Of a stretch of DNA of 64,000 nucleotides, positions 2,991 to 45,169 are shown in pieces (positions within the stretch are counted from its first letter, which is position 1; the number at the start of each line of letters is the position of its first letter). The stretch lies in contig CAUYUJ010021660.1 of the NCBI GenBank assembly GCA_963575745.1, positions 1 through 64,000 on the forward strand, given 5' to 3'. Both the position numbers and the translations under genes were made by a program. The DNA comes from Prorocentrum cordatum (taxonomy: Eukaryota; Sar; Dinophyceae; Prorocentrales; Prorocentraceae). Under the pieces are notes generated by a model. That model was given only the letters and a program-made list of their open reading frames with translations. It did no database searches and was not told the DNA's origin.

Positions 2991-3189
2991 GTGGCAACTT
3001 CTCGTCGGAGAGCTCGCTGAGAGCTAGAGGGTTTAAGAGTAGAAGCCCGGCGGTGGTGGTGCCCGCCAGGAGCCCATCTCCGACGGTCCACGATCCCCGC
3101 AGCAGCTTGTAAAACGTCGCAGGGGGTCCAGGAGAGTTTCCGGCAAGCGTGAACGCGTGCCTGCAAGCGTCCAGGGCACGCGTGGAAGC
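2991..3189 (+). repeat. Module C (GC-rich LINE-associated repeat)
   Basis: Contains AGAGGGTTTAAGAGTAGAAG, CGGCGGTGGTGGTGCCCGCC, GACGGTCCACGATCCCCGC and a decayed GCGTGCCTGC/GCACGCGTGG palindrome region. The same module lies at the 5' end of LINE-1 and LINE-2 and alone at 9555-9746. The copy ends where the LINE-1 3' terminus begins. Confidence 0.7.
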
Positions 3190-3210
3190 ACTTGGTTGGG
3201 TGTTGGGGTC

Positions 3211-3238
3211 GGCTACACAGGGCGCGTGCGCCCTAGCC
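3211..3238 (-). other. LINE-1 3'-end stem-loop
   Basis: On the minus strand GGCTAGGGCGC then a 2-nt apex then GCGCCC and GTAGCC folds into a stem-loop just before the LINE 3' end. LINE-2 has the same stem at 34437-34464. A 3' stem-loop is the usual recognition signal for reverse transcriptases of non-poly-A LINEs (established for some eel and fish LINEs); its role here is inferred. Confidence 0.6.
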
Positions 3239-3249
3239 GTGCAGAGTCC

Positions 3250-4008
3250 CTAGGGTCCCTCACGCCCTCTCAACCTCTTTGGGGTTGGAGGCCCGAGGAT
3301 CACAGAGATAATCTGCCGAACACCTTGGAGCAGGCGTTCACAAGCTGTGAGCTCGCTATCTGTAACAGTGGCCCCCAGAGGGAGTAAAGAAGCCTCCTGG
3401 AAAACTCGTCGCCAGTGGTTGTCCCCAAATGAGACCTCCACATAGCAACCTAGAGCAGAGCCTTCAACACTCACGCCACCGTCCCATCCTCCACGGATAC
3501 GTTTGATACAATGTCTCTGTTGTCGTAAATATCTGAAGTCAATCCATCTTCCCGTCCTTCCCCTCCTCGCCTCCCAAGTCAACTCATCCGCAACACAATT
3601 GAACTCTCTGTAGATATGCTTCCACGGATCCGTCCCTACAGTGGCACACCTGATGTCGTAATCCTCCGCCAGTTGATTCATATCGTTTTGTAGACCGTGC
3701 ACTCTCCTGCGGTACGAACGATCACGGCATTCCCAGATCCCTCGGGCCCAGTTCACCACACACATACTATCACCAGTCATTTCAACCAACAATGAGCTCT
3801 CCGAGCCCTCCTGCCAGACAGTTTCGTTGTTATATCCGTGGGCAATCCTACGAGCGAGCCTGTCGGAGTCCTCAGGGGAGTCCCACGTATCCACAGGGCA
3901 AGGAGCACAGGGCGGTTTCCTGAAGATGGGCTCCCATCGGGCTGTATTTTTGTCATGCACGCAACTACATTCCACCAGTCCGTCGCATTCCACTTGATGC
4001 TGAACCAA
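3250..4008 (-). CDS. LINE-1 ORF2, C-terminal RNase H part (permuted order)
   Basis: This 252-codon frame continues ORF2 after a single-base frameshift near 3941 (CAGCCCGATGGG here, CAGCCTCGATGGG in LINE-2). RNase H would remove the RNA strand of the RNA/DNA hybrid after first-strand synthesis. Motifs seen in order: MTGDSMCVVNW (about residues 76-86), HIYREFNCVADELTWEAR (about 131-148), WDGGVSVEGSALGC (about 174-187) and ATVTDSELTACERLL (about 213-227). In canonical RNase H, DGG-like and AEL-like motifs come first and the DS.xVV and RExNxxAD motifs come last. Here the two halves are swapped. The first 22 or so codons before the frameshift site are out-of-frame and not part of the domain. The frame ends at 3250 with a basic stretch. 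Confidence 0.8.
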   Translation of the reverse strand: MVQHQVECDGLVECSCVHDKNTARWEPIFRKPPCAPCPVDTWDSPEDSDRLARRIAHGYNNETVWQEGSESSLLVEMTGDSMCVVNWARGIWECRDRSYRRRVHGLQNDMNQLAEDYDIRCATVGTDPWKHIYREFNCVADELTWEARRGRTGRWIDFRYLRQQRHCIKRIRGGWDGGVSVEGSALGCYVEVSFGDNHWRRVFQEASLLPLGATVTDSELTACERLLQGVRQIISVILGPPTPKRLRGREGP

Positions 4009-7004
4009 CGTAAATTACCACTCGCCGCCAGCATAAGACAATGCCAGCTGTCAGTGCTTGCATGCGCTCTCCCTCCCACTCTCCTCGTACCTTCCCTCCT
4101 CCTGGCTCCCGTGAACATGGATACAAGTGTGTCCCTCCGTAGTGACCATTCCCCCGCACAGTGTAACATGGCCTGCAGCGTCTGACGCCAGGCTCGTGCC
4201 CCACGCAAGTCCGTGGAGGCGAAGGCCCGATCATGAAACTGGGCCAGCTCCAACGCAAACTCGAAATTGGCTCGGACCACCTTCTCTAGGAGACTGCAGT
4301 GGCCAGCCTGCAAGAATAGCTCGTATGACTTCGGTGTGGTCCTGTCCCTGAACTCCTCCCACGTCTCCTCCTCCCTCTTGTGTAATCCTCGCATACCGTT
4401 GAGACACCTCCCCTCCCAGACCTTAATCCTCTCCAGCAGTCGTAGATTGCACGGCCAGCCTATACATCCGTGGTACACCACAGACTGCACACGAGCGGCA
4501 TACCTGCGAAACTTCTCTTTGAGTGAGACCGATCTGGAGCGATAAAACTGGATGTCAGCAAAATAGGCCTTCCTCCCTTTCTCCAGTCGATGATACAAGC
4601 CGTGATATCCCTTGATTTCCGAGCTGAGCTTCACTCCTAGTACCTCCACCTCCTCCTTCCTCGGCATAACGACAGTAGAGCGCAAGTGCTCTGGGAGATC
4701 CTCATCTCCAGAAATCGCACATATGGCTGGCGAGAGCGGGCAGAGCAGCGGCGGATCGCCACCTGTGTACGTCTGGCCAAAAAGTACATACGCCAAAGAG
4801 TCCTCCTTCCAGTCCATCCCTACCCGTCTGAGTGTTACCGTCATCATACCGATCATCTGTTGTAGCTGGAGCTGCGATGCAGCACAGAGCGCAACATTGT
4901 CCGCCCACAAGAAGTGGTGTACAAGAGCACCGTCCGTCCCCTCCCCTTCCAGTCGGACACCGTATCCTAAGGTATCCCAAGTCTGAATCACAGATCCCCA
5001 GATGGCCTCCAAGACAATATTGAAAAGTATTGGTCCCTCCTTACCTCCCGTTCGGACCGATTTGTTGTATCTCACCTCATCGCCGCACACGTTCTGAAAC
5101 TCAAAGATAGCAAAGTTATCCAGCATGGGCTCCACAATGGCTCTGATGAGGCACACAGGGTACTTAAGGTACAGCATGGCCTTGATGATAGTGTGCAGTG
5201 TGACATTATCGAAAGCTTTGTGTATGTCCAAGACTCCCACGTGCATGGACTCCGCCTTTCCCCACACATTTGCATGTCTAGTAAGATGTGATAGTGGTGC
5301 CGTGACGTTAGTAACCTTCTGATCCTTTTCAAATCCGTATGTGCACAACCGTCGGTTCACAGGAAATGCATCAATAAACTGCAACACACATGCCATGTAC
5401 CATTTACTCATCACACTGATCAGGCAAATCCCTCTGGTGTTGGAGAGTCGTGTAGCATCCCGCATCTTCGGCACAAGTTGGATACTGAGCTGCCTCCACG
5501 TCTCAGGGCTGGAGGCTCCCTGCTCGAAAATCCTCTGGAAAGCACGCCGCACAAACAAGAGGCTCCTCCACGGCAACTCACGAATGACCTCCGCAACGAC
5601 TCCATCGCTGCCGGGTGCCGTGCCAGGCTTCAAAGACGCACGAGCCTGCATGAGCATGCCCATCGTGATGACTCTTCCCTCCACCCCACGGTCGTTGTGT
5701 CTGAGTTCCTGAAAGGCCTCCAAAGTCCGTTTTTCCTCCTCCGAGTTCGTGTAAGACGCCGTCGCATACCTAGTGATCTCCGTACTCCACCTAGTCCTGT
5801 CCATTGTCAGCACACCCTCACACTCCAGCTCCTTGAGGATACACCGTGAGGTCTTACTGGATCCCCTGTGGTCCTGCAGGAGTTGGTTCCTCCTATGCTG
5901 TCTCCTAAGGGTCTTCCTCCTACGCAGCAGTTGTTTACGAGTATTCCCAAGGGCCCCACGCCTGATGGCAGACTCCACCTCTATGAGCTCCCTGGGCCTC
6001 TGAATAGGTTTGCAGTTGGGGCGCCCCTTAGTGTGGTCCACAAGCTTTGCCGTCTCCAAGAGTACCCGTCCGACCTGCTGCAGGTCCGTCCCTACCGTGT
6101 CCGATGCAAGTCCCTCAATCGACACATCCGCAAGCACACGAAACATGTTCCTCGCCGTGTCGTCCGTCGGCTGCCAGCCAACCATGGACACCGGGCGGGG
6201 TGGCAAAGCTGGGCGCCTGATCTCCGTCGTCTTGAGATTTACCCAGACCAGAGCGTGATCACTGTAGGCACTGGCTTTTGCACGTATACCTGGCGTAGCT
6301 TTGATGGGTTCCACAAACTGGACCTGGCATCTCATTTCCTGGTGAGCTCTTGCCTCATCCGCGCACCAATGTGTAGGGATGAGTATATAGTCAAGCACAC
6401 GCTGCACATGTGTGGAACAGTACGGTATATGTGTGATACGTCGGTCTCCATATGTGTTCGCCGCACAGATCCCCCAAGTACTCATGAACCTCATCAGCAT
6501 GTCCCTCCTTTCTGCATGATAGTTCGCCTCCTCCCTCCTCCCGTCCACCTGCATAAGACCTCCTCCCGTCATTCCCAGCATATCTGGTTCAAGTTCCGTC
6601 TGAGCATCCATCCCCACCCATGGTATGACTCCAGCCTGTGTCGTTTGAAACATAGTAACACTGCACTTAGTAAGTACATCTAAATATTCCCCCAAGTGGT
6701 CCACATCACGCATCACACATGGTAGATACACTGATGTAGCTAGAGCACCCCTGAATTCAACACACGCAAATCGTACCCCACTCCGTCGAGCAATCACATG
6801 TGGTGCCCAATCCCTGCACCATGCAACCGCCGCCTTAGAGCAGGAGCTATAGTGAATCTCCCATCCACATCTGTTAAAAGTATTTGCACTGGTATGCTCA
6901 CACTCTTGCAGGCACACCATTTGAATTGACCTGGCTTCACATGCAGCGACCAGGTTGGGTACTTGACCGTCGGATATTTTCTGCACATTCCAGGTTGCGA
7001 CCAC
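3777..7004 (-). CDS. LINE-1 ORF2: endonuclease-reverse transcriptase
   Basis: The ORF2 protein (1075 codons open) nicks target DNA and copies the element RNA. Residues about 1-260 are an endonuclease/exonuclease/phosphatase domain, with TWNV, LQEC, GMDAQTE, DYIL and SDHALVW as the catalytic signatures. Residues about 450-760 are reverse transcriptase: KPGTAPGSDG, LVPKMRD with ICLISVMSKW, motif A VLDIHKAFDN, motif B RTGGKEGPILFNI and motif C HHFLWADNVAL. Motif C is WADN rather than YADD, also in the other two LINEs here. The listed start is GTG and is not conserved in LINE-2 (GTC). No ATG lies between the ORF1 stop and the endonuclease motif, and ORF2 is in the ORF1 frame, so translation probably comes by readthrough. 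The last roughly 55 codons are out of frame after the frameshift near 3941. Confidence 0.88.
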   Translation of the reverse strand: MVATWNVQKISDGQVPNLVAACEARSIQMVCLQECEHTSANTFNRCGWEIHYSSCSKAAVAWCRDWAPHVIARRSGVRFACVEFRGALATSVYLPCVMRDVDHLGEYLDVLTKCSVTMFQTTQAGVIPWVGMDAQTELEPDMLGMTGGGLMQVDGRREEANYHAERRDMLMRFMSTWGICAANTYGDRRITHIPYCSTHVQRVLDYILIPTHWCADEARAHQEMRCQVQFVEPIKATPGIRAKASAYSDHALVWVNLKTTEIRRPALPPRPVSMVGWQPTDDTARNMFRVLADVSIEGLASDTVGTDLQQVGRVLLETAKLVDHTKGRPNCKPIQRPRELIEVESAIRRGALGNTRKQLLRRRKTLRRQHRRNQLLQDHRGSSKTSRCILKELECEGVLTMDRTRWSTEITRYATASYTNSEEEKRTLEAFQELRHNDRGVEGRVITMGMLMQARASLKPGTAPGSDGVVAEVIRELPWRSLLFVRRAFQRIFEQGASSPETWRQLSIQLVPKMRDATRLSNTRGICLISVMSKWYMACVLQFIDAFPVNRRLCTYGFEKDQKVTNVTAPLSHLTRHANVWGKAESMHVGVLDIHKAFDNVTLHTIIKAMLYLKYPVCLIRAIVEPMLDNFAIFEFQNVCGDEVRYNKSVRTGGKEGPILFNIVLEAIWGSVIQTWDTLGYGVRLEGEGTDGALVHHFLWADNVALCAASQLQLQQMIGMMTVTLRRVGMDWKEDSLAYVLFGQTYTGGDPPLLCPLSPAICAISGDEDLPEHLRSTVVMPRKEEVEVLGVKLSSEIKGYHGLYHRLEKGRKAYFADIQFYRSRSVSLKEKFRRYAARVQSVVYHGCIGWPCNLRLLERIKVWEGRCLNGMRGLHKREEETWEEFRDRTTPKSYELFLQAGHCSLLEKVVRANFEFALELAQFHDRAFASTDLRGARAWRQTLQAMLHCAGEWSLRRDTLVSMFTGARRREGTRRVGGRAHASTDSWHCLMLAASGNLRWFSIKWNATDWWNVVACMTKIQPDGSPSSGNRPVLLALWIRGTPLRTPTGSLVGLPTDITTKLSGRRARRAHCWLK

Positions 7005-7028
7005 GGTCTCTGTCGCAGCCCTACCGCC

Positions 7029-7034
7029 CCGTCA
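7029..7034 (-). promoter_or_regulatory. In-frame TGA-CGG between ORF1 and ORF2 (possible readthrough site)
   Basis: ORF1 ends in TGA at 7034-7032, followed by CGG, and the same frame stays open through ORF2. LINE-2 keeps the same TGA-CGG at 30638-30643. UGA followed by CGG is a known leaky stop context in several plant RNA viruses. Its use here is inferred. Confidence 0.55.
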
Positions 7035-8132
7035 ATGATTCGGGCGCCGTAGTGTCTGAAGAAACTGCACCTGATTAATATCGGGCTCAACGTGTGTCAA
7101 ATTATCACCATAGAGGTTCCATCCTTTTGTCGGTCCCCATTCTGCAATCAAGGTCTTTTGTGTAGTACCATCAGCATTCGGCATATACCACATATATGTC
7201 ATTGGCGGACCCGTCTCACCTCGAAGAATAGCCGTCGCATTTTTCTTGATATCAGAAAATAGTGCTTGAAACCGTCCTACCGCCCGAACATGTTCTATCT
7301 TCCATGGCTGGCATTCAACTTGAAATCGCACATTGGGAGGCAATGAAGTGAGTCCCCGCCTGTAGTCATTCTCCCACACACGTTTCGCTTCCCATAGGAT
7401 CTCAGAGGATGTACCTGGCTTGAAATAGATCCTACCCCTCGTGTACGGCCAATATCTACCAGTATTCTCCTGAACCGTCCGATCCAAGTCCAGTGCCACC
7501 CTCTGTGTAGCATCAATTTGTTTAGAGTCAATGAGGCCATTCATCGCCGTCGTCAGTGCCTCCTGTGACAGAGCCTCCCGCTGACGTATCTCACGGTTCC
7601 TCCATCCCTCCCTTGAAACCCACCCTTTGAACTCAACATAACGTGGATTCCAACCAGGATCGTGCCTGTCCGTACCCGCCTTCGTGGATCCACTTGCTAC
7701 CGACAGCCCGTCCCCCTGCTTGAGCTTCTGAACTTCATTGGTGAGGTCCTGGATCGCCGATTCTGTTTTTGATACCCTGGAAGCCAGAGATGTTTTCAGA
7801 CCGTCCATTTCCGTACGAATAGAGTTCCTGAACGATTGCATGTCAGCCGTCATAGTCTGTTGTCCCGTCATGATGGATCGAAACATCTGTTCAATGTCAA
7901 GGCCTGCTTCCTGGGCAACCTCATTCGCACCCAACGTTTGCGCCGCACCTCCTCCTTCTCCCTTCCCTGCTCCTTTGACATTACGAGCGCGGACAGCTCT
8001 AGCAAACGCCCCACCCCCATCATCAATTGTCATGTCCTGGCCCACCGCATGCAAGCCTGGAGCACCTGAAACTGAAGAACCTGCTGGCATCGCTGGTGCA
8101 ACACCTGAAACTGAAGAACCTGCAGCAGCCAT
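7032..8132 (-). CDS. LINE-1 ORF1 protein
   Basis: ORF1 of non-LTR retrotransposons makes the nucleic-acid-binding chaperone of the RNP; assignment is by position before ORF2. The first ATG is at 8132 (MAAAGSSVSG, good context with A at -3 and G at +4), giving 366 residues. The frame is open upstream to about 8258 through two copies of a 15-residue repeat containing VQGEGYDFNILR, but without an ATG. The N-terminus has SSVSGV/SSVSGA repeats and a Gly-rich stretch. A heptad-like region (QSFRNSIRTEMDGLKTSLAS then VSKTESAIQDLTNEVQKL, about residues 125-175) suggests a coiled coil. The C-terminal half (FKGWVSREGWRNREIRQREA, WEAKRVWENDYRRGLT) is the conserved part. I cannot see a CCHC zinc knuckle or a clear RRM. 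Confidence 0.75.
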   Translation of the reverse strand: MAAAGSSVSGVAPAMPAGSSVSGAPGLHAVGQDMTIDDGGGAFARAVRARNVKGAGKGEGGGAAQTLGANEVAQEAGLDIEQMFRSIMTGQQTMTADMQSFRNSIRTEMDGLKTSLASRVSKTESAIQDLTNEVQKLKQGDGLSVASGSTKAGTDRHDPGWNPRYVEFKGWVSREGWRNREIRQREALSQEALTTAMNGLIDSKQIDATQRVALDLDRTVQENTGRYWPYTRGRIYFKPGTSSEILWEAKRVWENDYRRGLTSLPPNVRFQVECQPWKIEHVRAVGRFQALFSDIKKNATAILRGETGPPMTYMWYMPNADGTTQKTLIAEWGPTKGWNLYGDNLTHVEPDINQVQFLQTLRRPNH

Positions 8133-8139
8133 CTTCCTT

Positions 8140-8236
8140 TTGTGGCTGCGTAAGATATTGAAATCGTAACCTTCACCCTGCACGAAGTGGTTACGCAAGA
8201 TATTGAAATCGTAACCTTCACCCTGCACAAACGGTA
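8140..8236 (-). repeat. 45-bp tandem duplication before ORF1 ATG
   Basis: Two near-identical units (GTGCAGGGTGAAGGTTACG then ATTTCAATATCTTGCG) end just upstream of the ORF1 ATG. LINE-2 has both units at about 29447-29536, so the duplication predates both copies. It is either 5' UTR or an N-terminal extension without ATG. Confidence 0.75.
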
Positions 8237-8828
8237 CTGTTGGTGTGAGCGATGGCACGCAAATAACAGCTCTTCTGTCCCCTCGAGGTGTCCCGACCTG
8301 TCTAGCAAGATAGTCCCAGTCCGCGTGACTGAAGTCAGATCCCCAGCACTCCGTCGTTCCAAGAGAGAGGAAAAGAGACTACTGCCGCAAACAAGTGCAG
8401 GCAGCCTAGCCCACACAATAACAATAACAAGTGCAGCGGCCTAGCTGACCTCGATCTCGCTGAACCCGAAGAAGACGAAGAAGGCAGCGATGGCTGCCGC
8501 GCCGCCCGCGGCGACGCACCCCCCTCCCACACGCCTAGACGCCTGTGGGATCCAGACGCCTTGATCCAGACGCCTTGAGCCAAAATGGCTACGGAGAGCA
8601 AAGAGACTCTCGGGAACTGGGGGCTCTGGAGGGCCAGCTGCAGCGCTGCTGAAGTGCTGCCAGGATCGCTTCCATGCGTGCCTGCACGCGTGCAGGCACG
8701 CATGGAAGCTTGCCGGAAGCTTCCCCGGACACGTTGCCGGCTCAAAAAAGCCTCTGCGGGGAACGTAGACCGCCGGAAAAGAGCTCCTGCGGGCACCACC
8801 ACCGTCCGGCTTCTAATCTTAAGCCCTT

Positions 8829-9139
8829 TAGCTACTCTCGGTTTTCTGCACTTAACTCAGGCTGTATGGGGGGCTGGAGAGCTGGTAATCACAGGAATCG
8901 ATCCGCAGACATCAGACGCGTCCGCCTGTCGCATTCAGAGGTCTGAACTCGGTTTCATACTCGAGCTCGATTGGAAAACTGTTCGTTTGTTTTGTTAGAG
9001 TCATCTTGAGAGGTCTATAATCGCTTGGGCTGAAAAACTACTCGTTCTCTGAAATTCTCTTCCACATTATATATTGCCAGGAAGCTCTGCGAGTCCCCCG
9101 GCGGTAAGAAAGGTTGACGGTTTACCGCCGGCGCCCAGT
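8829..9139 (+). mobile_element. Type A element, 5'-truncated
   Basis: Starts inside a type A monomer (ACTCTCGGTTTTCTGCAC) at the LINE-1 boundary. It keeps about one monomer, the AT-rich end (CCACATTATATATTGCCAGG) and a perfect tail: CCGGCGGTAA at 9098-9107 and TTACCGCCGG at 9122-9131. Very similar to 17550-17859. Confidence 0.8.
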
Positions 9140-9746: not shown

Positions 9747-11112
9747 CGTTTTACCTCGTAGAGCTCTTCGACATCGATGAGCTAGAGGAATTCCGGCGCC
9801 GGGTGGACGACCCGGCCTTAAGAGACAAAGTGACTCGTAGAGCTTCCCCAAGCTAGTTGCTGGAAGCTTAAGAGTAATTCCGGCGCGCTGGAGAGCTAGT
9901 TGGCACGAAAAATGTCGACGGAACTTTTGCTGACTTTTGGTCGGTTGAAAATTTTGTTCTTGAAATTTGACCATTCGTTAGAGCTCTAGTATTTTTCCCG
10001 TGATATCCGATCTTATTCCCGCTCGCCATTTTGATCTCAGCTCGATCGGGTAACTTTGAAGACCAAAAAGCACTCTGACGGGATCGGCCGTTTCCAGTCA
10101 TCTTGATATGCGCCGACGGTTTTATGAACATAACTCCTGCTCTAGGGCAGCTACAAAGCTGGTAAGCACAGCTAATGCATGCAGAATAATCAGGCGCGTT
10201 CACCTGTTGAACCCAGGGGTCTGAACTCGGTCTGTGAGCCGAGCTAGGTGCACAAACCTCTTCGGCCGTTTCGAGTCATCTCTATATGCGCTGACGGTTT
10301 TATGAACATAACTCGAGCTCTAGGGCAGCTACAGAGCTGGTGAGCACAGCAAATGCATGCGGGATAATCAGGCGTGTTCGTCTGTTGAACCCAGAGGTCT
10401 GAACTCGGTCTTCTAGCCGAGCTAGGTCCGCAAATCTGTTCGTATTATTCGAGTCATCTTGACACACGCTCTCGGTTTTCTGTACTTAACTCGAGGTGTA
10501 GGGCAGTTACAGAGCCTATAGTCACATAAATCGATTGGGAATTATCGGGCGTGTTGTATCGAGAGCTCTGAACTCGGCCTGCTGCCCGAGCTAGGTTCGC
10601 GAAACTATTCGTATTGTCCGAATCATCGTCGAAGGTGCTCTCAATTTTCTGCACTCAACTCGTGCTGGGGGAGGGCTACAGTGCTGCGGGTCATAGAAAT
10701 CGATTTGCACACATCAGGCGCGTTTGTTGGTTGATTCGAGAGCTCAGAACTTGGTCTGCTGCTCGAAACAGGTCCGCGAAACTATTGTATTATGCGAGTT
10801 ATCCTGAGAGATGCTGTCGGTTTTCTGCACTTACCTCGGGCTGTAGGGGGGCTGCAGGGCTGGTTATCCCATAAGTCGATTCGTTGACATCAGACGCGTC
10901 CGCCTGTCGCATTGCGAGGTTTGAACTCGGTCTGATACTCGAACTGGGTTGCGAAACTGTTTGTTTTTTGTTAGAGTCACCTTGAGAGGTCTGAAATCGC
11001 TTGGGCTGAAAACTACTCGTTCTCTGGATTGTTTCCCACACTATATACTGTCAGGAAGCTCTACGAGTCCCCCGGCGGTAAGAAAGGTTGACGGTTTACC
11101 GCCGGCGCGCAG
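9747..11112 (+). mobile_element. Hairpin-tailed element, type A, about six monomers
   Basis: Leader with CTCGTAGAGCTCTTCGAC and TTGCTGGAAGCTTAAGAG, the type A head (TCCGGCGCGCTGGAGAGC), then tandem monomers of about 178 bp marked by GAGTCATCTT-like words near 10091, 10270, 10448, 10620, 10797 and 10973. Ends in a perfect tail stem at 11072-11081/11096-11105; the terminal bases are GCGCGCAG rather than GCGCCCAGT. Confidence 0.8.
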
Positions 11113-11430
11113 CTTCGGCGCGGGGTGTCGCTAGTACCTCGTAGAGCTCTTCGGCATCGATGAGCTAGAGGAATTCGGGCGTGGGCTGGAGCTAGTTGGC
11201 CGACCCGGCCCCGACGGACAATGTGGTGATTTTGAATTCGTTTTGGAAATTCGAATTTTTATTCTATGCATCGAATCATGGCGCTTTCGATGGTGCAATT
11301 CTTATGGCACTAGCTGAATGATTTCGATGAAAAGACTACGGGGAACCATCATTGCGTACAACCCAAAAAAAAATGTCAGTTGTTTGAAGCTAGTATGCAC
11401 AAGCTTTTTTCTGTTGTTATCTCGGAACCG
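11113..11430 (+). mobile_element. Type D body without its own tail
   Basis: Leader GAGCTCTTCGGCATCGATGA and GGCCGACCCGGCCCCGACGG, then the D body (ATTCTATGCATCGAATCATG, GATGGTGCAATTCTTATGG, CTTTTTTCTGTTGTTATCTC). It matches 19814-20140, but stops at ATCTCGGAACCG, where a minus-strand type B tail begins. Confidence 0.75.
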
Positions 11431-11791
11431 ACTGGGAACCGGCGGTAAACCGTCAACCAGGTTACCGCCGGGACCCTCGTAGAGCTCTGTTCTCACACCG
11501 CGCTCCTAAGAACACAGGGGGTCAGCTTCTGGAGTGAGAAACGAAAAAATTGGAAAAAATCACGTTTTCTGTTTTTATCGAACGTCGGTTCCTCCAAGTG
11601 TTTTGATAGAAATACTGCACCTATAGACGTGAAAATTTTACTGGCAGACGCGTCTGAACCCAGTACAGGTGCGAAAAATCTGGTTTCTCAATGAATTGTC
11701 AAATATCTTTCAAAAAATCGCAAAAGCATCCAAAAGTTGCCACATTGTCCGCCTCGGCCGGGTCGGCCAACTAGCTCCACCCCGCGCCGGA
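11431..11791 (-). mobile_element. Type B element on minus strand
   Basis: Reverse-complement orientation: the tail is at 11431-11486 (right arm first) and the body runs to CCCCGCGCCGG at 11791. The body contains CACTTGGAGGAACCGA-like and GCACCTGTACTGGG-like words when read on the minus strand. Insertion against the general polarity of the mosaic. Confidence 0.75.
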
Positions 11792-12195
11792 AGGGAACCG
11801 GCGGTAAACCGTCAACCAGATTACCGCCGGGTCCCTCGTAGAGCTCTTTTTATCACACGGCGGTTCTCGGTGAACATGAAGAAAGCGTCCAGAGCAAGAT
11901 CTCAGAAACTCGAAAAATGACGTTTTTCTGTTTTTATCCAACGCCGGTTCCCCCAAGTGTTTTGATAGTAATACTGCAGCTACGGACCTGGAAATTTTAC
12001 TGGCAGACGCGGAAGAACCTACTACAGGTGCGAAAAATCTGGTTTCTCAAAATGAATTGTCAAATATTCTTCAATTTTTCGCAAAACCACCCAAAAGTTG
12101 TCACATTGTCCGCCTCGGCCGGGCGAGCCAACTAGCTCCACCCCGCGCCGGAATTCCTCTAGCTCATCGATGCCGAAGAGCTCTACGAGGTACCT
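11792..12195 (-). mobile_element. Second minus-strand type B element
   Basis: Head-to-tail with the preceding minus-strand copy. The tail is at 11792-11847 and the body extends to the leader at about 12195, which reads AGAGCTCTACGAGG on the plus strand (CCTCGTAGAGCTC on minus). The two minus copies are similar to each other over their full length. Confidence 0.75.
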
Positions 12196-12310
12196 GGTCT
12201 ATAGAGAGCTCTACGAGGGTCCCGGCGGCAACCTGGTTGACAGTTTACCGCCGGTTCTGAGTTGGTCGACCCGGCCAGAACGGACAAAGTGATAACTTTT
12301 GGGTGGTTTT
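12196..12310 (+). repeat. Hairpin tail plus truncated type B start
   Basis: Tail at 12206-12263 with stem CCGGCGGCAA/TTACCGCCGG (one C-A mismatch) ending GGTTCTGAGT. Then the B leader TGGTCGACCCGGCCAGAACG and AACTTTTGGGTGGTTTTT, broken off at 12310. Confidence 0.7.
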
Positions 12311-12720
12311 TCCCGGATAGCTCCTAGAAGAGCTAATGATTTCATAGAAGAAGCCGGAGGTGGGTGGTGAGGGAGACACGCCCACTTCTGCCGGTCCACG
12401 ATCCAGCGAGTTGCCGGAGGTTGCAGCGGGTCCGGGAGCGTGGCCTCCTAGCGTTTCCTAATACGCGTGGCTCAAGGGTGCGCGAAGCGCTTCGGCAGAG
12501 CTCCGGCAGAGCTTCGCCAGTGCTCGCAGGCTCCTAGACAGAGGTGTCGTGGTAGGTTTCACAGAGCCCCGCGCGTCGTAAAATACGCCATTGCAGGCGT
12601 CTCCTGCGAGGTTCCAGCGCAGCACGCATCGTTCCAGGCGGTCTGACAGAGGTCGCCGTGCGGCGCTTTGGAGCGCTCTGCGCTCCGCGCCTTGCCTCGC
12701 TATCCGGGTTTTCTTACAAG
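12311..12720. repeat. Module C-like GC-rich segment
   Basis: GAAGCCGGAGGTGGGTGGTG, TTCTGCCGGTCCACGATCC and GGTCCGGGAGCGTGG match the module C order but are diverged. The remainder is GC-rich sequence without coding signal. Confidence 0.5.
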
Positions 12721-12995
12721 TGTGATTTTTTTGAAAGATATTTGATAATTTATGTTAAGAAAGCAGATTTTACGCACCTGAAAACGATGATGAGGGCCTC
12801 TATGTCTTAGTATGAGCTCCGTAAGCTATCAAAACACTTCGAGGAACCCATGTCGACAAGAAAACATCATTTTCCCTCTTGTTCGAGAAATGTTTCCAGA
12901 AGCTCTCTCTTTCGACTCTGAGCATTCTTGCTCGTGAAAGGAGCTCTGCGAGGTTCCCGGCGGTGGCCAGGTTGACGGTTCACCGCCGGCGCCAG
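12721..12995 (+). mobile_element. Hairpin-tailed element, type B
   Basis: Starts inside the B body (TTTTTTTGAAAGATATTTGA) and runs through GAGGGCCTCTATGTCTTAG and CTCTTTCGACTCTGAGCATT to the tail: CCGGCGGTG at 12957-12965 and CACCGCCGG at 12981-12989, ending GCGCCAGT. Confidence 0.8.
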
Positions 12996-14452: not shown

Positions 14453-15386
14453 TTGGTCGGTTGAAAATTTTGTTCTCGAAATTCAACCATTCGTTAGAGC
14501 TCTAGTATTTTTTCCCGTGATATTCGATCTTATTCGCGCTCGCCATCTTGATCTCAGCTCGATCGGGTGAATATTACTATCGAACAGCACTCTGGCGGGA
14601 TCGGCCGTTTTGAGTCATGTTGATACGCGGTGACGGTTTTCTCAAGATAACTCGAGCTTTAGGAGAGCTACAGAGCTGCTAAACACAGCTAATCTATGTA
14701 GAATGATTAGGCGCGTTCGCCTGTCCAATCCAGAGGTCTGAACTCGGTCTGTTAGCCGAGCTAGATCCCCAAAACTATCCGTATTATTCGAGTCATCTTA
14801 ATAACAACTCTTGGTTTTCTGCACTTAACTCGAGCTGTAGAACAGCAACAGAGCTGATATTTACAGAAACTGATTCAGCATGATCATTTGTGTTTGTCTG
14901 TCGAATCCAGAGCTCTGAACTCGGTCTGCTGCCCGATCTAGATTCGCGAACTATTCGTATTGTTCGAGTCACCTTGAGAAGTGCTCTCGGTTTCCTTCAC
15001 CCAACTCGCGCTCAGGGCGGCTACAGTGCTGATCGTCACAGGAATCGATTACAAGACATCATGCGCGTCCGCCAATCGAATCCAGAGCTTTGAACTCTGT
15101 CTGCTGCCCGAACTGGTCCGCGAAACTATTCGTATTGTTCGAGTCATCCTCAGAGGTGCTGTCGGTTTTCTGCACTTAACTCGGGCCGTAGGGGGGCTCC
15201 AGGGCTGGTCATGACAGAAGTCGATTCGCAGACACCAGACGCGTCCGCCTGTCGCATTCAGAGGTCAAAAAATATGCACTATAATGTTGGTAGGTGCTGT
15301 CGATTTTCTCAACTTAAGTCGAGCTAGGAAGCTCTACGAGTCTCCCGGCGGTAACCAAGGTTGACGGTTTACCGCCGGCGCCCAGT
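14453..15386 (+). mobile_element. Type A element, head truncated
   Basis: Begins right after CCCAGT at TTGGTCGGTTGAAAATTTTG, i.e. inside the head. About four monomers (near 14612, 14786, 14966, 15137), then tail stem 15345-15354/15369-15378 with CAAGG in the loop. Confidence 0.85.
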
Positions 15387-28636: not shown

Positions 28637-29056
28637 TTTGCGCCGGCAGCGGGTCGGGAAGCGGTTCCGACAAGCGTCCACGCGTGCCTGCGCGCGTGCA
28701 GGCCCGCATGGAAGCGTGCCTGGCAGTGCTTGACAAGCGCTTCAGGAGAACTTCCCAGAGCTCGCCAGAACAACTTTTCAGAGTTGCCTCTCTGCTCTCC
28801 GGGATTTTCCCAGAGAGCTCTCTGAGAGCTATAGGGTTTAAGATTAGAAGCCGGACGGTGGTGGTGCCTGCCAGCAGCCCATCATCGCCGGTCCAGAACC
28901 CCCGCAGGGGCCTGTTTGAACCGGCAGCTTGTCCGGGAGCGGTTCCGGCACGCGTCCACGCGTGCAGGCACGCGTGGAAGCGTGCCTGGCAGCGCTTGAG
29001 AAGCGCGTCAGGAGAGCGTCCCAGAGCTCGTCAGGAAACCTCTCCAGAGTTGCCTC
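28637..29056 (+). repeat. Tandem 5' monomers of LINE-2 (module C)
   Basis: Two successive copies, offset by about 272 bp, of the palindrome region (GCGTCCACGCGTGC), GAAGCGTGCCTGGCAG, CCCAGAGCTCG and AGAGTTGCCTCT. LINE-1 has one copy at the same place (8626-8828). Repeated 5' monomers resemble the promoter monomers of some other LINEs; promoter activity is untested. Confidence 0.65.
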
Positions 29057-29542
29057 TTTGCTCTCCGTAGCCATTTTGGCTCAAGGCGTCTGGATCAAGG
29101 CGTCTGGATCCCACAGGCGTCTAGCGTGCGGGGGGGGGCGCGTCGCCGCGGGACGGCGGCGCGGCAGCCATCGCTGCCTTCATCGTCTTCTTCGGGTTCA
29201 GCGAGATCGAGGTCAGCTAGGCCGCTGCACTTGTTATTGTTATTTTGTGTGCTAGGCCGCCTGCACTTGTTATTGTTATTGTTACTGCTGTAATTGACTC
29301 TTTTCCTCTCACTTGGAAAGACGGAGTGCTGGGGATCCGACTTCAGTCACGCTGACTGGGACTATCTAGCCAGGCAGGTGGGGGCACCTCGTAGTGACAG
29401 GAGAGCTGTTATTTGTGTGCCATCGCTCACACCAACAGTGCCGTTTGTGCAGGGTGAAGGTTACGATTTCAATATCTTGCGTAACCACTTCGTGCAGGGT
29501 GAAGGTTGCGATTTCAATATCTTACGCAGCCACAAAAGAAAG

Positions 29543-30640
29543 ATGGCTGCAGCAGGTTCTTCAGTTTCAGGTGCTGCACCAGCGATGCCAGCAGGTTCTT
29601 CAGTTTCAGGTGCTCCAGGCTTCCATGCGACGGGCCAGGACATGACAATTCATGATGGGGGTGGGGCGTTTGCTAGAGCTGTCCGTGCTCGTAATGTCAA
29701 AGGAGGAGGGAAAGGAGAAGGAGGAGGTGCGGGACAAACATTGGGTGCGAATGAGGTTGCCCAGGAAGCTGGACTTGACATTGCACAGATGTTTCGATCT
29801 ATCATGACGGGACAACAGACTATGACGGCAGACATGCAATCGTTTAGGAACTCTATTCGTACGGAAATGGACGGTCTGAAAACATGTGGATTCCAGGGTC
29901 TCGAAAACAGAGTCGGCGATCCAGGACTTCACCAATGAAGTTCAGAAGCTCAACCGGGGGGACGGGCTGTCGGTAGCAAGTGGATCCACGAAGGCGGGTA
30001 CGGACAGGCACGATCCAGCTTGGAATCCACGTTCTGTTGAGTTCAAGGGATGGGTTTCAAGGGAGGGATGGAGGAACCGTGAGATACGTCAGCGGGAGGC
30101 TCTTTCACAGGAGGCACTGACGACGGCGATGAATGGTCTTATTGACTCTGAACAAATTGATGCTACACAGAGGGTGGCACTGGACTTGGATCGGACGGTT
30201 CAGGAGAATATTGTTAGATATTGGCCGTGCACGAGGGGCAGGATCTATTTCAAACCAGGTACATCCTCTGAGATCCTATGGGAAGCGAAACGTGTGTGGG
30301 AGAATGACTATAGGCGGGGACTCACTTCATTGCCTCCCAACGTGCGATTTCAAGTTGAATGCCAGCCATGGAAGATAGAACATGTGGGGCGGTAGGGAGG
30401 CTTCAAGCACTATTTTCTGATATCAAGGGCAATGCGACGGCTATTCTTCGAGGTGAGACGGGTCCGCCAATGGCATATATGTGGTATATGCCGAATGCTG
30501 AGGATACTACACAAAATACGTTGATTGCAGAATGGGGACCGACAAAAGGATGGAACCTCTATGGCGCCAACTTGACACACGTTGAGCCTGACATTCACCA
30601 GGTGCAGTTTCTTCAGACACTACGGTGTCCTAATCATTGA
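29543..30640 (+). pseudogene. LINE-2 ORF1 (broken)
   Basis: ATG at 29543 (MAAAGSSVSG), as in LINE-1. It is broken near 29890 (two bases missing against LINE-1, after MDGLKT) and near 30387 (one base missing before GAVGRLQALF). The pieces together cover the whole ORF1 and end in the conserved TGA at 30638-30640. Residues between the breaks are well conserved (FKGWVSREGWRNREIRQREA), so the damage is recent. Confidence 0.8.
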
Positions 30641-33600
30641 CGGGGCGGTAGGGCTGTGACAGAGACCGTCGTCGCAACCTGGAATGTGCAGAAGATATCC
30701 GACGGTCAAGTACCCAACCTGGTCGCTGCATGTGAAGCCAGGTCAATTCAAATGGTGTGCCTGCAAGAGTGTGATCATACCAGTGCAAATACTTTTAATA
30801 GATGTGGATGGGAGATTCACTATAGCTCCTGCTCCAAGGCGGCGGTTGCATGGTGCAGGGATTGGGCACCACATGTGATTGCACGACGGAGTGGGGTACG
30901 ATTTGCGTGTGTCGAATTCAGGGATGCTCTAGTTACATCAGTGTATCTACCTTGCGTGATGCGTGATGTGGACCACTTTGGGGAATACTTAGATGTACTT
31001 ACAAAGTGCAGTGTTACTATGTTTCAAATTACACAGGCTGGAGTCATACCATGGGTGGGGATGGATGCTCAGACGGAACTTGAACCAGATATGTTGGGAA
31101 TGACGGGAGGAGGTCTTATGCAGGTGGACGGGAGGAGGGAGGAGGCGAACTACCATGCAGAGAGGAGGGACATGCTTATGAGGTTCATGAGTACTTGGGG
31201 GATCTGTGCGGCGAACACATGGAGCTCGACGTATCACACATGTACCGTACTGTTCCACACATGTGCAGCGTGTGCTTGACTACATACTCATCCTTACACG
31301 TTGGTGCGCGGATGAGACAAGAGCTCACCAGGAAATGAGATGCCAGGTCCAGTTTGTGGAACCCATCAAAGCTACGCCAGGTATACGTGCAAAAGCCAGT
31401 GCCTATAGTGATCACGCTCTGGTCTGGGTAAATCTCAAGACTACGGAGATCAGGCGCCCAGCTTTGCCACCCCGCCCTGTGTCCATGGTTGGCTGGCAGC
31501 CGACGGATGACACGGCGAGGAACATGTTTCGTGTGCTTGCGGATGTGTCGATCGAGGGGCTTGCATCTGACACGGTAGGGGCGGACCTACAGCAGGTCGG
31601 ACGGGTACTCTTGGAGACGGCAAAGCTTGTGGACCACACTAAGGGGCGCCCCAACTGCAAACCTATTCAGAGGCCCAGGGAGATCATAGAGGTGGAGTCT
31701 GCCATCCGGCGTGGGGCCCCTGGGAATACTCGTAAACAACTGCTGCGTAGGAGGGAGACCCTTAGGAGACAGCATAGGAGGAACCAACTCCTGCAGGACC
31801 ACAAGGGATCCAGTAAGACCTCACGGTGTATCCTCAAGGAGCTGGAGTGTGAGGGTGTGCTGACAATGGACAGGACTAGGTGGAGTACGGAGATCACTAG
31901 GTATGCGACGGCGTCTTACACGAACTCGGAGGAGGAAAAACGGACTTTGGAGGCCTTTCAGGAGCTCAGACACAACGACCGTGGGGTGGAGGGAAGAGTC
32001 ATCACGATGGGCATGCTCATGCAGGCTCGTGCGTCTATGAAGCCTGGCACGGCACCCGGTAGCGATGGAATCGTTGCTGAGGTAATCCGTGAGTTGCCGT
32101 GGAGGAGCCTCTTGTTTGTGCGGCGTGCTTTCCAGAGGATTTTCGAGCAGGGAGCCTCTAGCCCTGAGACGTGGAGGCAGCTCAGTATCCAACTTGTGCC
32201 GAAGATGCGGGATGCTACAGGACTCTCCAACACCAGAGGGATTTGCCTGATCAGTGTGATGAGTAAATGGTACATGGCATGTGTGTTGCAGTTTATTGAC
32301 GCGTTTCCTGTGAACCGACGGTTGTGCACATACGGGTTTGAGAAGGATCAGAAGGTCACTAACGTCACACGGCACCACTATCACATCTTACTAGACATGC
32401 AAATGTGTGGGGGAAGGCGGAGTCTATGCACGTGGGAGTCTTGGACATACACAAGGCGTTCGATAATGTCACACTGCGCACTATCATCAGGGCCATGCTG
32501 TACCTTAAGTACCCTGTGTGCCTCATCAGAGCCATTGTGGAGCCCATGCTGGATAACATTGCTACCTTTGAGTTTCAGAACGTGTGCGGCGATGAGGTGA
32601 GATACAATAAATCGGTCCGAACGGGAGGTAAGGAAGGCCCTATACTTTTCAATATTGTCTTGGAGGCCATCTGGGGATCTGTGATTCAGACTTGGGATAC
32701 CTTAGGATACGGTGTCCGGCTGGAAGGGGAAGGGGGCGGACGGTGCTCTTGTACACCACTTCTTGTGGGCGGACAATGTTGCGCTCTGTGCTGCATCGCA
32801 ACTCCAGCTACAACAGATGATCGGTATGATGACGGTAACACTCAGACGGGCAGGGATGGACTGGAAGGAGGATTCTTTGGCATATGTACTTTTTGGCCAG
32901 GCGTACACCTGTGGCGATCCGCCGCTGCTCTGCCCGCTCTCGCCAGCAATCTGTGCGATTTCTGGAGATGAGGATCTCCCAGAGCACTTGCGCTCGACTG
33001 TTGTAATGCCGAGGAAGGAGGAGGTGGAGGTACTCGGAGTGAAGCTCAGTTCGGAAATCAAAGGTTACCACGGTTTGTATCATCGACTGGAGAAAGGGAG
33101 GAAGGCCTATTTTGCTGACATTCAGTTTTATCGCTCCAGATCGGTCTCACTCAAGGAGAAGTTTCGCAGGTATGCCGCTCGTGTGCAGTCTGTGGTGTAT
33201 CACGGATGCACAGGCTGGCCGTGCAACCTACGACTGCTGGAGAGGATTAAGGTCTGGGAGGGGAGGTGTCTCAACGGTATGCGAGGATTACACAAGAGGG
33301 AGGAGGAGACGTGGGGGGAGTTCAGGGACAGGACCACACCGAAGTCATACGAGCTATTCTTGCAGGCTGGCCACTGCAGTCTCTTAGAGAAGGTGGTCCG
33401 AGCCAATGTCGAGTTTGCGTTGGAGCTGGCCCAGTTTCATGATCGGGCCTTCGCCTCCACAGATATGCGTGGAGCACGAGCCTGGCGCCAGAAGCTTCAG
33501 GCTATGTTACACTGTGCGGGGGAATGGTCACTACGGAGGGACACACTTGTATCCATGTTCACGGGAGCCAGGAGGAGGGAAGGTACGAGGAGAGTGGGAG

Positions 33601-34425
33601 GGAGAGCGCATGCAAGTACTGACAGCTGGCATTGTCTCATGCTGGCGGCGAGTGGTAATTTACGCTGGTTCAGCATCAAGTGGAATGCGACGGACTGGTG
33701 GAATGTAGTTACGTGCATGACGAAAATACAGCCTCGATGGGAGCCCATCTTCAGGAAACCGCCCTGTGCCCCTTGTCCTGTGGATACGTGGGACTCCCCT
33801 GAGGACTCCGACAGGCTCGCTCGTAGGATTGCCCACGGGTATAACAACGAAACTGTTTGGCAGGAAGGCTCGGAGGGCTCATTATCGGTTGAAATGACAG
33901 GAGATAGTATGTGTGTGGTGAACTGGGCCCGAGGGATCTGGGAATGCCGTGATCGTTCGTACCGAAGGAGAGTGCATGGCCTACAAAAATGATATGAATC
34001 AACTTGCTGAGGATTACGACATCAGGTGTGCCACTGTAGGGACGGATCCGTGGAAGCATATCTACAGAGAGTTCAATTGTGTTGCGGATGAGCTGACATG
34101 GGAGGCGAGGAGGGGAAGGACGGGAAGATGGATTGACTTCAGATACTTGCGACAACAGAGACATTGTATCAAACGTATCCGTGGAGGATGGGACGGTGGC
34201 GTGAGCGTTGAAGGCTCTGCTTTAGGTTGCTTTGTGGAGGTCTCATTTGGGGGCAACCACTGGCGACGAGTTTTCCAGGAGGCTTCTTTACTCCCTCTGG
34301 GGGCCGCTGTTACAGATAGCGAGCTTACAGCTTGTGAACGCCTGCTGCAAGGTGTTCGGCAGATTATCTCTGAGATCCTTGGGCCTCCAACCCCAAAGAG
34401 GTTGAGGGGGCGTGAGGGACCCTAG
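30641..34425 (+). pseudogene. LINE-2 ORF2: endonuclease-RT-RNase H (broken)
   Basis: Same frame as ORF1 after TGA-CGG. Endonuclease motifs TWNV, LQEC, GMDAQTE and SDHALVW are present. Reverse transcriptase has KPGTAPGSDG, VLDIHKAFDN, RTGGKEGPILFNI and FLWADNVAL (32757-32783). The RNase H is in permuted order: GDSMCVVNW near 33900, then REFNCVADELTWEAR near 34070, WDGGVSVEGSALGC near 34190 and AVTDSELTACERLL near 34310. Frameshifts relative to LINE-1 lie near 31215 (endonuclease), 32365, 32728 and 33985 (an extra A in an A-run). Reading frames between breaks: 30656-31279, 31206-32600, 32405-32971, 32712-33992 and 33949-34425. LINE-1 is intact at each of these places. Confidence 0.85.
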
Positions 34426-34481
34426 GGGCTCTGCGCGGCTAGGGCGCTCGCGCCCTGTGTAGCCGACCCCAACGCCCAACC

Positions 34482-34619
34482 AAGTGGTCGCTGTTAAGAT
34501 GGACGCTTCCAAGTGACGCGGGAGTGGCCCTGGAGCGAGGACCTGGGGGACCTCGTAGAGCTCTTCGGCATCGATGAGCAAGAGGAATAACTCGTAGAGC
34601 TTCCCTTAGCTAGGACCTT
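34482..34619. repeat. CTCGTAGAGC repeat mosaic
   Basis: GGACGCTTCCAAGTG (compare GGACGCTACCAAGTG at 2619 and 20612), then CCTCGTAGAGCTCTTCGGC and AACTCGTAGAGCTTCCCTTA units. A junction of truncated leaders; no coding signal. Confidence 0.6.
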
Positions 34620-38068: not shown

Positions 38069-38410
38069 GCGGAGGCCTTACTGAGAACTTCGTTCAGCGT
38101 TCTGGGTTATTCCATAATTTAGGCATCTATGGGTTCCAGGAGGCACGTAAGACTTGGGAGATTACTAGCAGTCTAAAAACATTGGCTCAACACGGGGATA
38201 CGTGGGGAAAGAATGAGTGTGTGTACTTCGCGAATGCGGACATCAAACAGGCGTTCGATAATTGTAGTCTTGCTAATGTGAGAAGAGGCTTACAACATGC
38301 ACATGTACCTCCATATCTTCAATACGCGCTTTTGGCCCCGTTATGTGGTACTATAGGTACTGTGATCGTGGAAGGGATGAAACTCCTGGGCTCCATTGGG
38401 ATAGGTGCAT
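38069..38410 (+). pseudogene. LINE-3 RT fragment before the frameshift
   Basis: Frame +1 reads YGFQEARK, then ADIKQAFDN (RT motif A, with its catalytic Asp), matching YGFEKDQK and LDIHKAFDN of LINE-1. Around 38395-38410 the homologous frame changes to +3 (CIRTGGPEGPLVFN), so a small indel separates motif A from motif B. The listed ATG at 38041 lies in the repeat, not in the LINE. Confidence 0.75.
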
Positions 38411-40286
38411 ACGTACGGGGGGTCCCGAGGGGCCCCTGGTGTTCAACCTGATTGTCGTGGCGATGTGGGCCGAGGTCTTCAGATCTTGGGACATACAAAG
38501 ATTGGGCTACCGTGTCGAGGGACTCTACGGGTCCATACGTAAGGAGATCCTCATCAGTCACTTCCTCTGGGCTGACAATGTCTATCTCGTAGCCGCTTCG
38601 GCCGCTGACCTCAGGAGTAGGATTCACGATCTAACATTACCACTCGCTTCTTTTGGCATGACGTGGAAGGCGTCATCACTGCTCTTTATGACATGTGGCC
38701 TGGCACCTCGTTGTAATGCTGATGGGATCATCTTACCTGAGGAGGATCTCATAGTTACCACATCTGAGGTCCTGCGCTTCAGAAGAGTTTCCTCGATGAA
38801 TGTGCTCGGTGTCGAGATCCATTCCGAGTTCAATACCCCTACACATCCTGATGTGGACCATCGTCTGTCCATAGCACGCAAGAGTTCCTATGGCATGTCC
38901 AATTATTTCAGGTGTTCTGCTGTGAGTATTAGGGATAAATTCTGGAGGTATCAGGAGACGGTTCAGGGTATTGCTATGTACGGTATCGAGGGCATGACAC
39001 TCGACAATCATTCCATTCAGCGTATGCACGCCTTCGAAGGGGTCTGTCTTTGCAAAATGTTCAGGTGTCCCAGGGGAGCCGATGAGGATGTGGCCACGTG
39101 GAGTCGGAGGAGGTATGCGGAAGCCAGGAGGAAGTTTCAGGAGATGGGTTTCGCTTCCCTGGTTCAGAGGTTTCTTCGTGTTTCCTGGAATCTGGCAAAA
39201 GACATGTGCGAGTTTATCCACGTGATCCAGGCGGACATATATGATGAGTGGAGGAATGCTGGTCGGACTTGGCGTGACGTACGTGCGTGCTTGTGTGCAT
39301 ATGGTGTTATGTGGGACCGCATCCGTACGGATGCCTCGGAGTTCCTGCGCATGAATTTCTACCTTCGTGAATCCAGTCAGATGAAACGCCAACGGGGAAG
39401 GGGACTTGCCATTGGACAGAGACATTGGACCCACATGTTGTCAGAGTTCTTCGGGCCCAAGTGGTGGGGGGATTTCCGTGCTACTCCAGGGACCTTCGAG
39501 CAGTTCGCCGCACGCGTCTGTTCTCGGGATATGCTTGACTGTTTCCAGATCCGTGCCAAAACGCATAGTCATCCTAGGGCTACTGGGGAGGTCCATATCC
39601 AAATTCAGCAGGAACTTCAGGAGTATGGAGTGGACGAGGGATCACAAACTGCCAATGATCGTCTAGCTAAACGACTTGCTGTACACACATCCAAATGGGA
39701 GAATGCCGAGTGGGATCTTGAGGCCTTCGGAGTCCCCATAAGTATCCATGGAGATAGCCTCTTGGTTGTATCATGGTGCCAAGGGTACTGGCAGGTTATC
39801 AACAAAGATTATCAAAGGAGAGTCGACAGGATCATACATCGTCTGGATGGTATGTCTTTTATGTTTCGTATACGCCCGGTTGCTCCTGGAAGAGACCTTA
39901 TCGAACACTGCTTCAGGGAATGGAATACAAGGGCGGACGTGCTCACTCATACTGCCCGAGAGGGCATCAACATATTTCAGGATTGTATCGGGCAGCAGCC
40001 CAACGAGTATTCGAATCTTTACAGGTATTGTGCCATCGATTGTGGCTTCGATGGTGGAGTGTCGACGGCGGGTGTCGGAGTCGGTTGCTGGATTGATGTC
40101 GGTCGTGTCTCGCGGACGTGTCGTAAGCCGAGCTCCATAGATATTGTGTGGACGGAGGTGTATAGTGCTGCTTTCTCTATCGACAACAATGCTTCAGTTA
40201 CTGATGCCGAACTGTCGGCGATTGAACATATCATTGATGTTCTTCCACGGGTTCTTCACACATACTTTGAGTTTGAACTTTTGTGA
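38343..40286 (+). CDS. LINE-3 ORF2 C-terminal half: RT and permuted RNase H
   Basis: An open frame of 647 codons; homology starts at about residue 18. RT motif B is CIRTGGPEGPLVFN; motif C is SHFLWADNVYLV (38556-38591), again WADN instead of YADD. A long thumb/connection region follows (WRYQETVQGIAMYGIEGM; KWWGDFRATPGTFEQFAARV). RNase H motifs appear in the order HGDSLLVVSW (about residues 469-478), IEHCFREWNTRADVLTHTA (about 517-535), FDGGVSTAGVGVGC (about 565-578) and ASVTDAELSAIEHII (about 615-629). This is the same permuted order as in LINE-1/2, in a diverged family. The frame ends at TGA 40286. The start codon given is only the first possible one; the true protein is truncated. Confidence 0.85.
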   Translation: MWYYRYCDRGRDETPGLHWDRCIRTGGPEGPLVFNLIVVAMWAEVFRSWDIQRLGYRVEGLYGSIRKEILISHFLWADNVYLVAASAADLRSRIHDLTLPLASFGMTWKASSLLFMTCGLAPRCNADGIILPEEDLIVTTSEVLRFRRVSSMNVLGVEIHSEFNTPTHPDVDHRLSIARKSSYGMSNYFRCSAVSIRDKFWRYQETVQGIAMYGIEGMTLDNHSIQRMHAFEGVCLCKMFRCPRGADEDVATWSRRRYAEARRKFQEMGFASLVQRFLRVSWNLAKDMCEFIHVIQADIYDEWRNAGRTWRDVRACLCAYGVMWDRIRTDASEFLRMNFYLRESSQMKRQRGRGLAIGQRHWTHMLSEFFGPKWWGDFRATPGTFEQFAARVCSRDMLDCFQIRAKTHSHPRATGEVHIQIQQELQEYGVDEGSQTANDRLAKRLAVHTSKWENAEWDLEAFGVPISIHGDSLLVVSWCQGYWQVINKDYQRRVDRIIHRLDGMSFMFRIRPVAPGRDLIEHCFREWNTRADVLTHTAREGINIFQDCIGQQPNEYSNLYRYCAIDCGFDGGVSTAGVGVGCWIDVGRVSRTCRKPSSIDIVWTEVYSAAFSIDNNASVTDAELSAIEHIIDVLPRVLHTYFEFELL

Positions 40287-42145: not shown

Positions 42146-42180
<35 letters not shown>

Positions 42181-42900: not shown

Positions 42901-42979
42901 GCGCATGTGTAGAAATGTGTTTTTTTCCGACCTGAGCATGTCATGAAACTGCTCGGCACGCACGTGAGGGGAGAAATCC

Positions 42980-45125: not shown

Positions 45126-45169
45126 CTGCGGCTGCCCGCTGCGCAGGGGGCTCCCTAGGCCCCCCCCCC

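Follow-up and report, generated by a model that had tools for sequence, protein, structure and literature searches.

We analysed a window of 64,000 nucleotides from the dinoflagellate Prorocentrum cordatum (assembly GCA_963575745.1, contig CAUYUJ010021660.1, positions 1 to 64,000), in which three long interspersed nuclear elements (LINEs), here LINE-1, LINE-2 and LINE-3, encode ribonuclease H (RNase H) motifs in swapped order. LINE-1 is one copy of a high-copy family and has the layout of a LINE: a first open reading frame (ORF1) is present, and ORF2 encodes a reverse transcriptase (RT) followed by a C-terminal domain. LINE-2 is 94% identical to it in DNA sequence across 5.7 kb, and LINE-3 is an ORF2 fragment (Table 1). 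RT homology of the LINE-1 ORF2 frame is clear (Pfam RVT_1, E 3.8e-13).

Table 1. Elements, frames and RNase H features in the window
Feature	Position	Strand	Remarks
LINE-1 element	3189..8833	-	ORF1 and ORF2; one copy of a high-copy family
LINE-1 ORF1 frame	7032..8378	-	448 aa
LINE-1 ORF2 frame	3777..7031	-	RT and weak endonuclease signal; RNase H continues in another frame from ~3939
LINE-1 frame with circularly permuted RNase H	3250..4014	-
LINE-1 RNase H back half	3559..3795	-	beta4, alphaB, alphaD, beta5, alphaE; from alignment and AlphaFold2 elements
LINE-1 beta4	3792-3772	-	catalytic D codon 3771-3769 (D39 of alignment)
LINE-1 alphaE catalytic D codon	3588-3586	-	D100 of alignment
LINE-1 RNase H front half	3295..3501	-	beta1, beta2, beta3, alphaA; from alignment and AlphaFold2 elements
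LINE-1 beta1 catalytic D codon	3483-3481	-	D135 of alignment
LINE-1 alphaA catalytic E codon	3354-3352	-	E178 of alignment
LINE-2, second copy	28827..34486	+	permuted RNase H at 33723-34422
LINE-3 ORF2 fragment	38277..40286	+	669 aa; part of RT, then permuted RNase H; tblastn to LINE-1 ORF2 and RNase H
LINE-3 permuted RNase H	39627..40271	+	catalytic codons start at 39753 (D), 39936 (D), 40050 (D), 40209 (E)

RNase H motif order and its distribution

On the minus strand of LINE-1, the frame 4014-3250 encodes the back half of RNase H, from the GDS of beta4 to REFNCVADEL, ahead of the front half, from the WDGG of beta1 to the VTDSEL of helix A. Canonical RNase H1 runs beta1-beta2-beta3-alphaA-beta4...alphaE, whereas here the order is beta4...alphaE-beta1-beta2-beta3-alphaA, and the domain is therefore classed as a permuted derivative of RNase H1. 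A preliminary description of this DNA had reported that second-half motifs precede first-half ones in LINE-1, and all the motifs it quoted indeed lie in this single open frame, in the order it gave. It had also placed them in ORF2 and extended the arrangement to LINE-2. The order and the single RNase H frame hold, but ORF2 of the window LINE-1 is frameshifted: its RT frame (7031-3777) and RNase H frame are out of step because, near 3939, a gap of one base opens against LINE-2. LINE-2 does share the arrangement, though split across two frames that match LINE-1 by tblastn (33723-33989, 93% identity; 33985-34422, 97%), with a separate one-base difference of its own near 33985. Both window copies are thus broken, at different sites.

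The same order recurs in divergent relatives. LINE-3, whose protein is 33% identical, aligns to the LINE-1 RNase H over both halves (30% identity, E 3e-21). Among database proteins, P0001 is 94% identical to LINE-3 and likewise permuted, while two others carry RT and permuted RNase H in one frame: P0002, which shares 53% identity with LINE-1 where the two match, and P0003 (1199 aa), which shares 29%. Chance is excluded as the source of this order, given the LINE-3 alignment across both halves within one window and the matching order in P0001-P0003 and further families.

We also searched the window's own 4.13-Gb genome. With the LINE-1 RNase H as query, the best 150 of 5432 candidates were scored; all 150 were 95-100% identical, and by our own count 52 lay in a 1260-codon open frame. 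The best 150 of 5229 candidates for the LINE-3 RNase H included LINE-3 copies and a family 57-59% identical to LINE-3, 40 members of which had a 1323-codon frame, again by our own count. One such member, L073, encodes RT and permuted RNase H in one frame and matched RVT_1 alone in Pfam, at the cut-off. The front half of P0003 recovered 14 further loci (clade C) out of 95 candidates. Searched by tblastn with three back-half queries (E 0.01), 13 of the 14 had a back half upstream of the front half and on its strand, and none had one downstream; it was distant in L040 (~0.9 kb) and L043 (~1.3 kb), and this search found none at L048. Canonical RNase H (PF00075) is also common in the genome, the best 150 of 2607 candidates having been scored. 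A protein search with the LINE-1 RNase H frame alone gave 587 candidates, none at E 0.001, and a search of viral contigs gave 43 pattern matches and no relatives. LINE-1 RNase H copies also follow one another on one strand, ~5 kb apart on contig C1389 (44481-85108) and ~700 bases apart on C15489 (748162-749481) and C20370 (113701-115020), a spacing that marks tandem or nested arrays.

Homology, catalytic residues and predicted fold

The profile match to RNase H1 strengthens when the two halves are exchanged. Profiles in native, exchanged and control order were built from 8 of 12 aligned sequences and compared with the PDB. With the halves exchanged, six RNase H1 sequences ranked first among 9 matches: Halobacterium RNase H1 (4e19/4nyn, E 1.3e-7), LC11 RNase H1 (3u3g, 1.7e-6), 4h8k (2.5e-5), Sulfolobus ST0753 (3aly, 6.1e-5; 2ehg, 7e-5) and Rv2228c (3hst, 3.7e-4). 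The first unrelated match appeared only at E 0.63. In native order the same six were found at E 1.6e-4 to 0.051, and every best stretch covered the back half; the three alignments printed also contain weak second stretches, in which parts of the front half fall on residues lying earlier in the matched chain. Reversing the front half, as a control, gave E 1e-3 to 0.14, worse than native order. For 4e19, the values were 4e-4 native, 1.3e-7 exchanged and 9e-3 in the reversed control. Solved RNase H1s are hence recognised as homologous in either order (best E 1.3e-7 exchanged, 1.6e-4 native), and the rotation that the preliminary description had proposed as a check improved the E-value for each of the six, from ~27-fold (2ehg) to 3000-fold (4e19). 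A small hhalign comparison with four canonical domains rose in score from 20.3 to 31.7. Scores against Pfam RVT_3 (PF13456, gathering cut-off 21.6) rose on exchange from 13.0 to 18.0 for LINE-1, from none to 17.5 for LINE-3 and from 23.7 to 25.3 for P0003. RVT_3 matched 7 of the 12 aligned members at E 10, and full-length P0002 scored 22.1, confined to the back half.

The 12-row alignment holds LINE-1, P0002, L073, LINE-3, L068, P0003, L074, L041, L042, L047, L049 and L050. Clade C loci L039, L040, L043, L044, L045, L046, L048 and L051 were excluded because they had stops or frameshifts, because their back half was remote or absent, or because they were redundant (L045 and L046 have like readings); L074 stands for L052. 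Four catalytic carboxylates do not vary across the 12 rows, D39 (beta4), D100 (alphaE), D135 (beta1) and E178 (alphaA), the D, E, D, D set of RNase H1 in rotated order. Also invariant are G136 and G137, which follow D135 in beta1, and V62, H90, E94, A99, A106 and G146. Among individual loci, the set reads DDDE in 29 of 30 LINE-1 loci, the remaining one being unscored for length, and in 16 of 20 LINE-3 loci, with one GDDE, one DDDD and two unscored.

Both halves show a low ratio of nonsynonymous (dN) to synonymous (dS) change. Between LINE-1 and LINE-2, the back half carries 1 nonsynonymous and 11 synonymous differences (dN 0.005, dS 0.268), and the linker plus front half 4 and 8 (dN 0.018, dS 0.113). 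LINE-3 compared with five chosen copies gave dN below dS in both halves in all five comparisons.

AlphaFold2, given the 12 sequences, predicted one confident domain (predicted local distance difference test, pLDDT, 87.2; predicted template-modelling score, pTM, 0.82). All core elements of RNase H1, beta1-5 and helices A, B, D and E, are placed in that one domain in permuted order, so the separate, incomplete domains that the preliminary description had named as the contrary outcome are not what the model predicts. The other contrary outcome, a canonical RNase H elsewhere in ORF2, was not found in Pfam scans of P0003 and the unbroken 1323-aa ORF2 of L073. Its remark that nothing canonical precedes the GDS motif stands insofar as no second RNase H is seen there; a short helix is predicted in that place (model residues 5-18). 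Structural matches to RNase H1 by VIA cover complementary halves in swapped order, with low Z.

Taken together, the ORF2 protein (ORF2p) of this LINE family very probably has at its C-terminus a circularly permuted RNase H1 of archaeal-like, RVT_3 type. The order itself, its conservation in divergent and unbroken elements, the invariance of D-D-D-E, the low dN/dS of both halves and the homology to RNase H1 after re-ordering are read directly from sequence, while closure of the two halves into one RNase H fold is a prediction of the model.

Weighing the alternatives

Several results weigh against a permuted RNase H. On exchange, P0002 moved from 26.9 to 26.7 bits against RVT_3, the one of four sequences without a gain, and 5 of the 12 members were unmatched by RVT_3 at E 10, including L073 and L074 as longer ORFs. 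Front halves on their own, which the preliminary description had proposed for a separate profile search, matched nothing in Pfam (LINE-1, LINE-3 and P0003), and the clade C front half plus tail had no match in the PDB. The identity of the front half therefore rests on the exchanged profile together with the structure prediction. As single exchanged sequences against the PDB, LINE-3 found no RNase H and P0003 found 3u3g at E 0.72, below unrelated chains. With 3 sequences only, AlphaFold2 reached pLDDT 38 and no usable model. VIA gave Z of 3.4-3.6 for the RNase H halves and up to 5.2 for unrelated folds, and Foldseek matched nothing at E 0.001: PelC headed its list, and RNase H1s came at E 0.19-0.40. 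Low Z for the halves is expected, because these aligners are sequential and the fold is permuted, yet that expectation is no proof. Sequential aligners would likewise miss a full-length permuted match, so the blanks from Foldseek and VIA do not point to a new fold. A strand resembling beta4 (for example REIFFDSLSRVREC) follows alphaA in P0003, L041, L042, L047 and L074. The likeness of REIFFDSLSRVR to REILGDSRLIVQ ranked 1 of 193 windows in L042, 4 of 193 in L041, 3 of 178 in L049, 12 of 241 in P0003 and 15 of 177 in L074, ranks that are suggestive only and lend weak support to duplication and loss, as the windows were chosen after the likeness was noticed, L041 and L042 are close kin and L047 was unscored.

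Could the two halves be adjoining remnants of two incomplete RNase H domains, one supplying its tail and the next its head, left as non-functional debris of a tandem duplication? Such an event would be the simplest origin, the beta4-like strand persists after helix A in several clade C loci, neither half is a complete domain alone, and isolated front halves match nothing in Pfam or, for clade C, in the PDB. We nevertheless find debris very improbable, since the four invariant catalytic residues are spread over both halves, dN is far below dS in each, many copies are unbroken and AlphaFold2 returns one confident domain.

Equally improbable is a near-canonical arrangement in clade C (P0003, L042, L074), in which the C-terminal beta4-like strand would take the place of the upstream beta4. 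The window ranks given above, first place in L042 among them, speak for it. Against it, the Asp position of the C-terminal strand reads D, V, N, S or G among the members read, whereas the upstream Asp never varies in the alignment, and LINE-1, P0002, LINE-3 and L073 end without such a strand. A domain swap, topologically related to permutation, would let halves of two ORF2p molecules complete each other into a functional RNase H in trans; the single-chain AlphaFold2 prediction closes the domain within one chain, and we hold a swap to be very unlikely. Chance motif likeness or an assembly artefact, which the frameshift near 3939 might suggest, deserves almost no credence, given that separate database proteins and 300 scored genomic loci (two queries) repeat the order, and given the E-value of the exchanged profile.

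Proposed mechanism, origin and known systems

If the permuted RNase H folds as predicted, the chain would enter at beta4 and continue through alphaB, alphaD, beta5 and alphaE; a linker of ~21 residues would join the old C-terminus to the old N-terminus, and beta1, beta2, beta3 and alphaA would follow, with alphaA as the chain end. The RT would thus be tethered to beta4 rather than beta1, leaving alphaA free, and the four carboxylates would make up the two-metal site usual for RNase H. Other LINEs with a C-terminal RNase H domain are presumed to use it to clear RNA from the RNA:DNA hybrid. By analogy, in target-primed reverse transcription ORF2p would nick DNA and copy the element RNA, and its RNase H domain would strip that template from the hybrid.

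The RT itself is unusual. Canonical motif C is F/YxDD, with two Asp; in LINE-1 it reads WADN (4896-4907, minus strand), as it does in L073, P0002, P0003 and LINE-3. Of 30 LINE-1 loci, 26 gave a match and 25 of these read WADN; of 20 LINE-3 loci, 15 gave a match and 14 of these read WADN; of 14 clade C loci, 5 gave a match and 4 of these read WADD. To our knowledge, replacement of a catalytic Asp by Asn in motif C of high-copy elements is uncommon.

Duplication followed by loss is one route to natural circular permutation. Here, the most likely origin is a tandem duplication of the RNase H, after which the front half of the first copy and the back half of the second would have been lost. A variable C-terminal Asp beside an invariant upstream Asp, together with the beta4-like strand, hints at such a history. 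On balance, we lean towards a fuller account, in which this is the first natural circularly permuted and catalytically active RNase H, with a single origin by tandem duplication and outer-half loss in a protist LINE lineage, a relic visible in sister families, and re-tethering to a WADN reverse transcriptase that left it fit enough for amplification to many unbroken copies.

Non-LTR (long terminal repeat) retrotransposons with a C-terminal RNase H include Tad, I, R1, LOA and plant L1, the last with an archaeal-like RNase H. The elements described here resemble them in the place of the domain, after the RT at the ORF2 C-terminus, and in its presumed job; all RNase H domains of other non-LTR retrotransposons that we know of have canonical order. 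Archaeal-like, RVT_3-type RNase H1s (4e19, 3u3g, 2ehg/3aly, 3hst) have the same catalytic D, E, D, D, the same RE.N..AD motif and the same set of elements. They differ in half order. In the LINEs a linker from alphaE leads into beta1, and LINE-1, P0002, LINE-3 and L073 stop after alphaA. RNase H is a core retroelement enzyme, its fold is one of those studied most thoroughly, and as far as we know it has always been described with one strand order. A permuted RNase H that keeps its catalytic residues and reaches high copy number would show that canonical connectivity is not essential, and would serve as a natural experiment on RNase H folding and on the arrangement that the RT and RNase H sites require. 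The order would also account for profile searches overlooking the RNase H of these elements or recovering only part of it, and sister families with the leftover strand may show how natural circular permutation arises.

The preliminary description knew of no LINE described with this arrangement, and searches of full-text literature, with most subscription papers outside their scope, likewise showed no circularly permuted RNase H among the papers listed. The main texts of a paper on plant and oomycete elements (PMC5348765) and of a 2014 survey of the RNase H-like superfamily (PMC3985635) contain no word beginning 'permut'. Permuted DNA methyltransferases (PMC7824862) are an example of naturally permuted enzymes; they share the kind of rearrangement but are neither RNase H nor part of a retrotransposon.

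As to an APE-type endonuclease at the N-terminus of ORF2, the LINE-1 frame matched Exo_endo_phos weakly (E 0.11, under the Pfam cut-off), a match not found in Pfam scans of L073 or P0003. LINE-1 ORF1 matched nothing in Pfam above the cut-off, and the peptide VQGEGYDFNILR is present twice near its start. The window begins with GT/CA-rich stretches and, among the matches listed, holds many diverged repeats at 9800-22000 and 41064-45150, in pieces of ~0.4-1.8 kb that are 72-95% alike.
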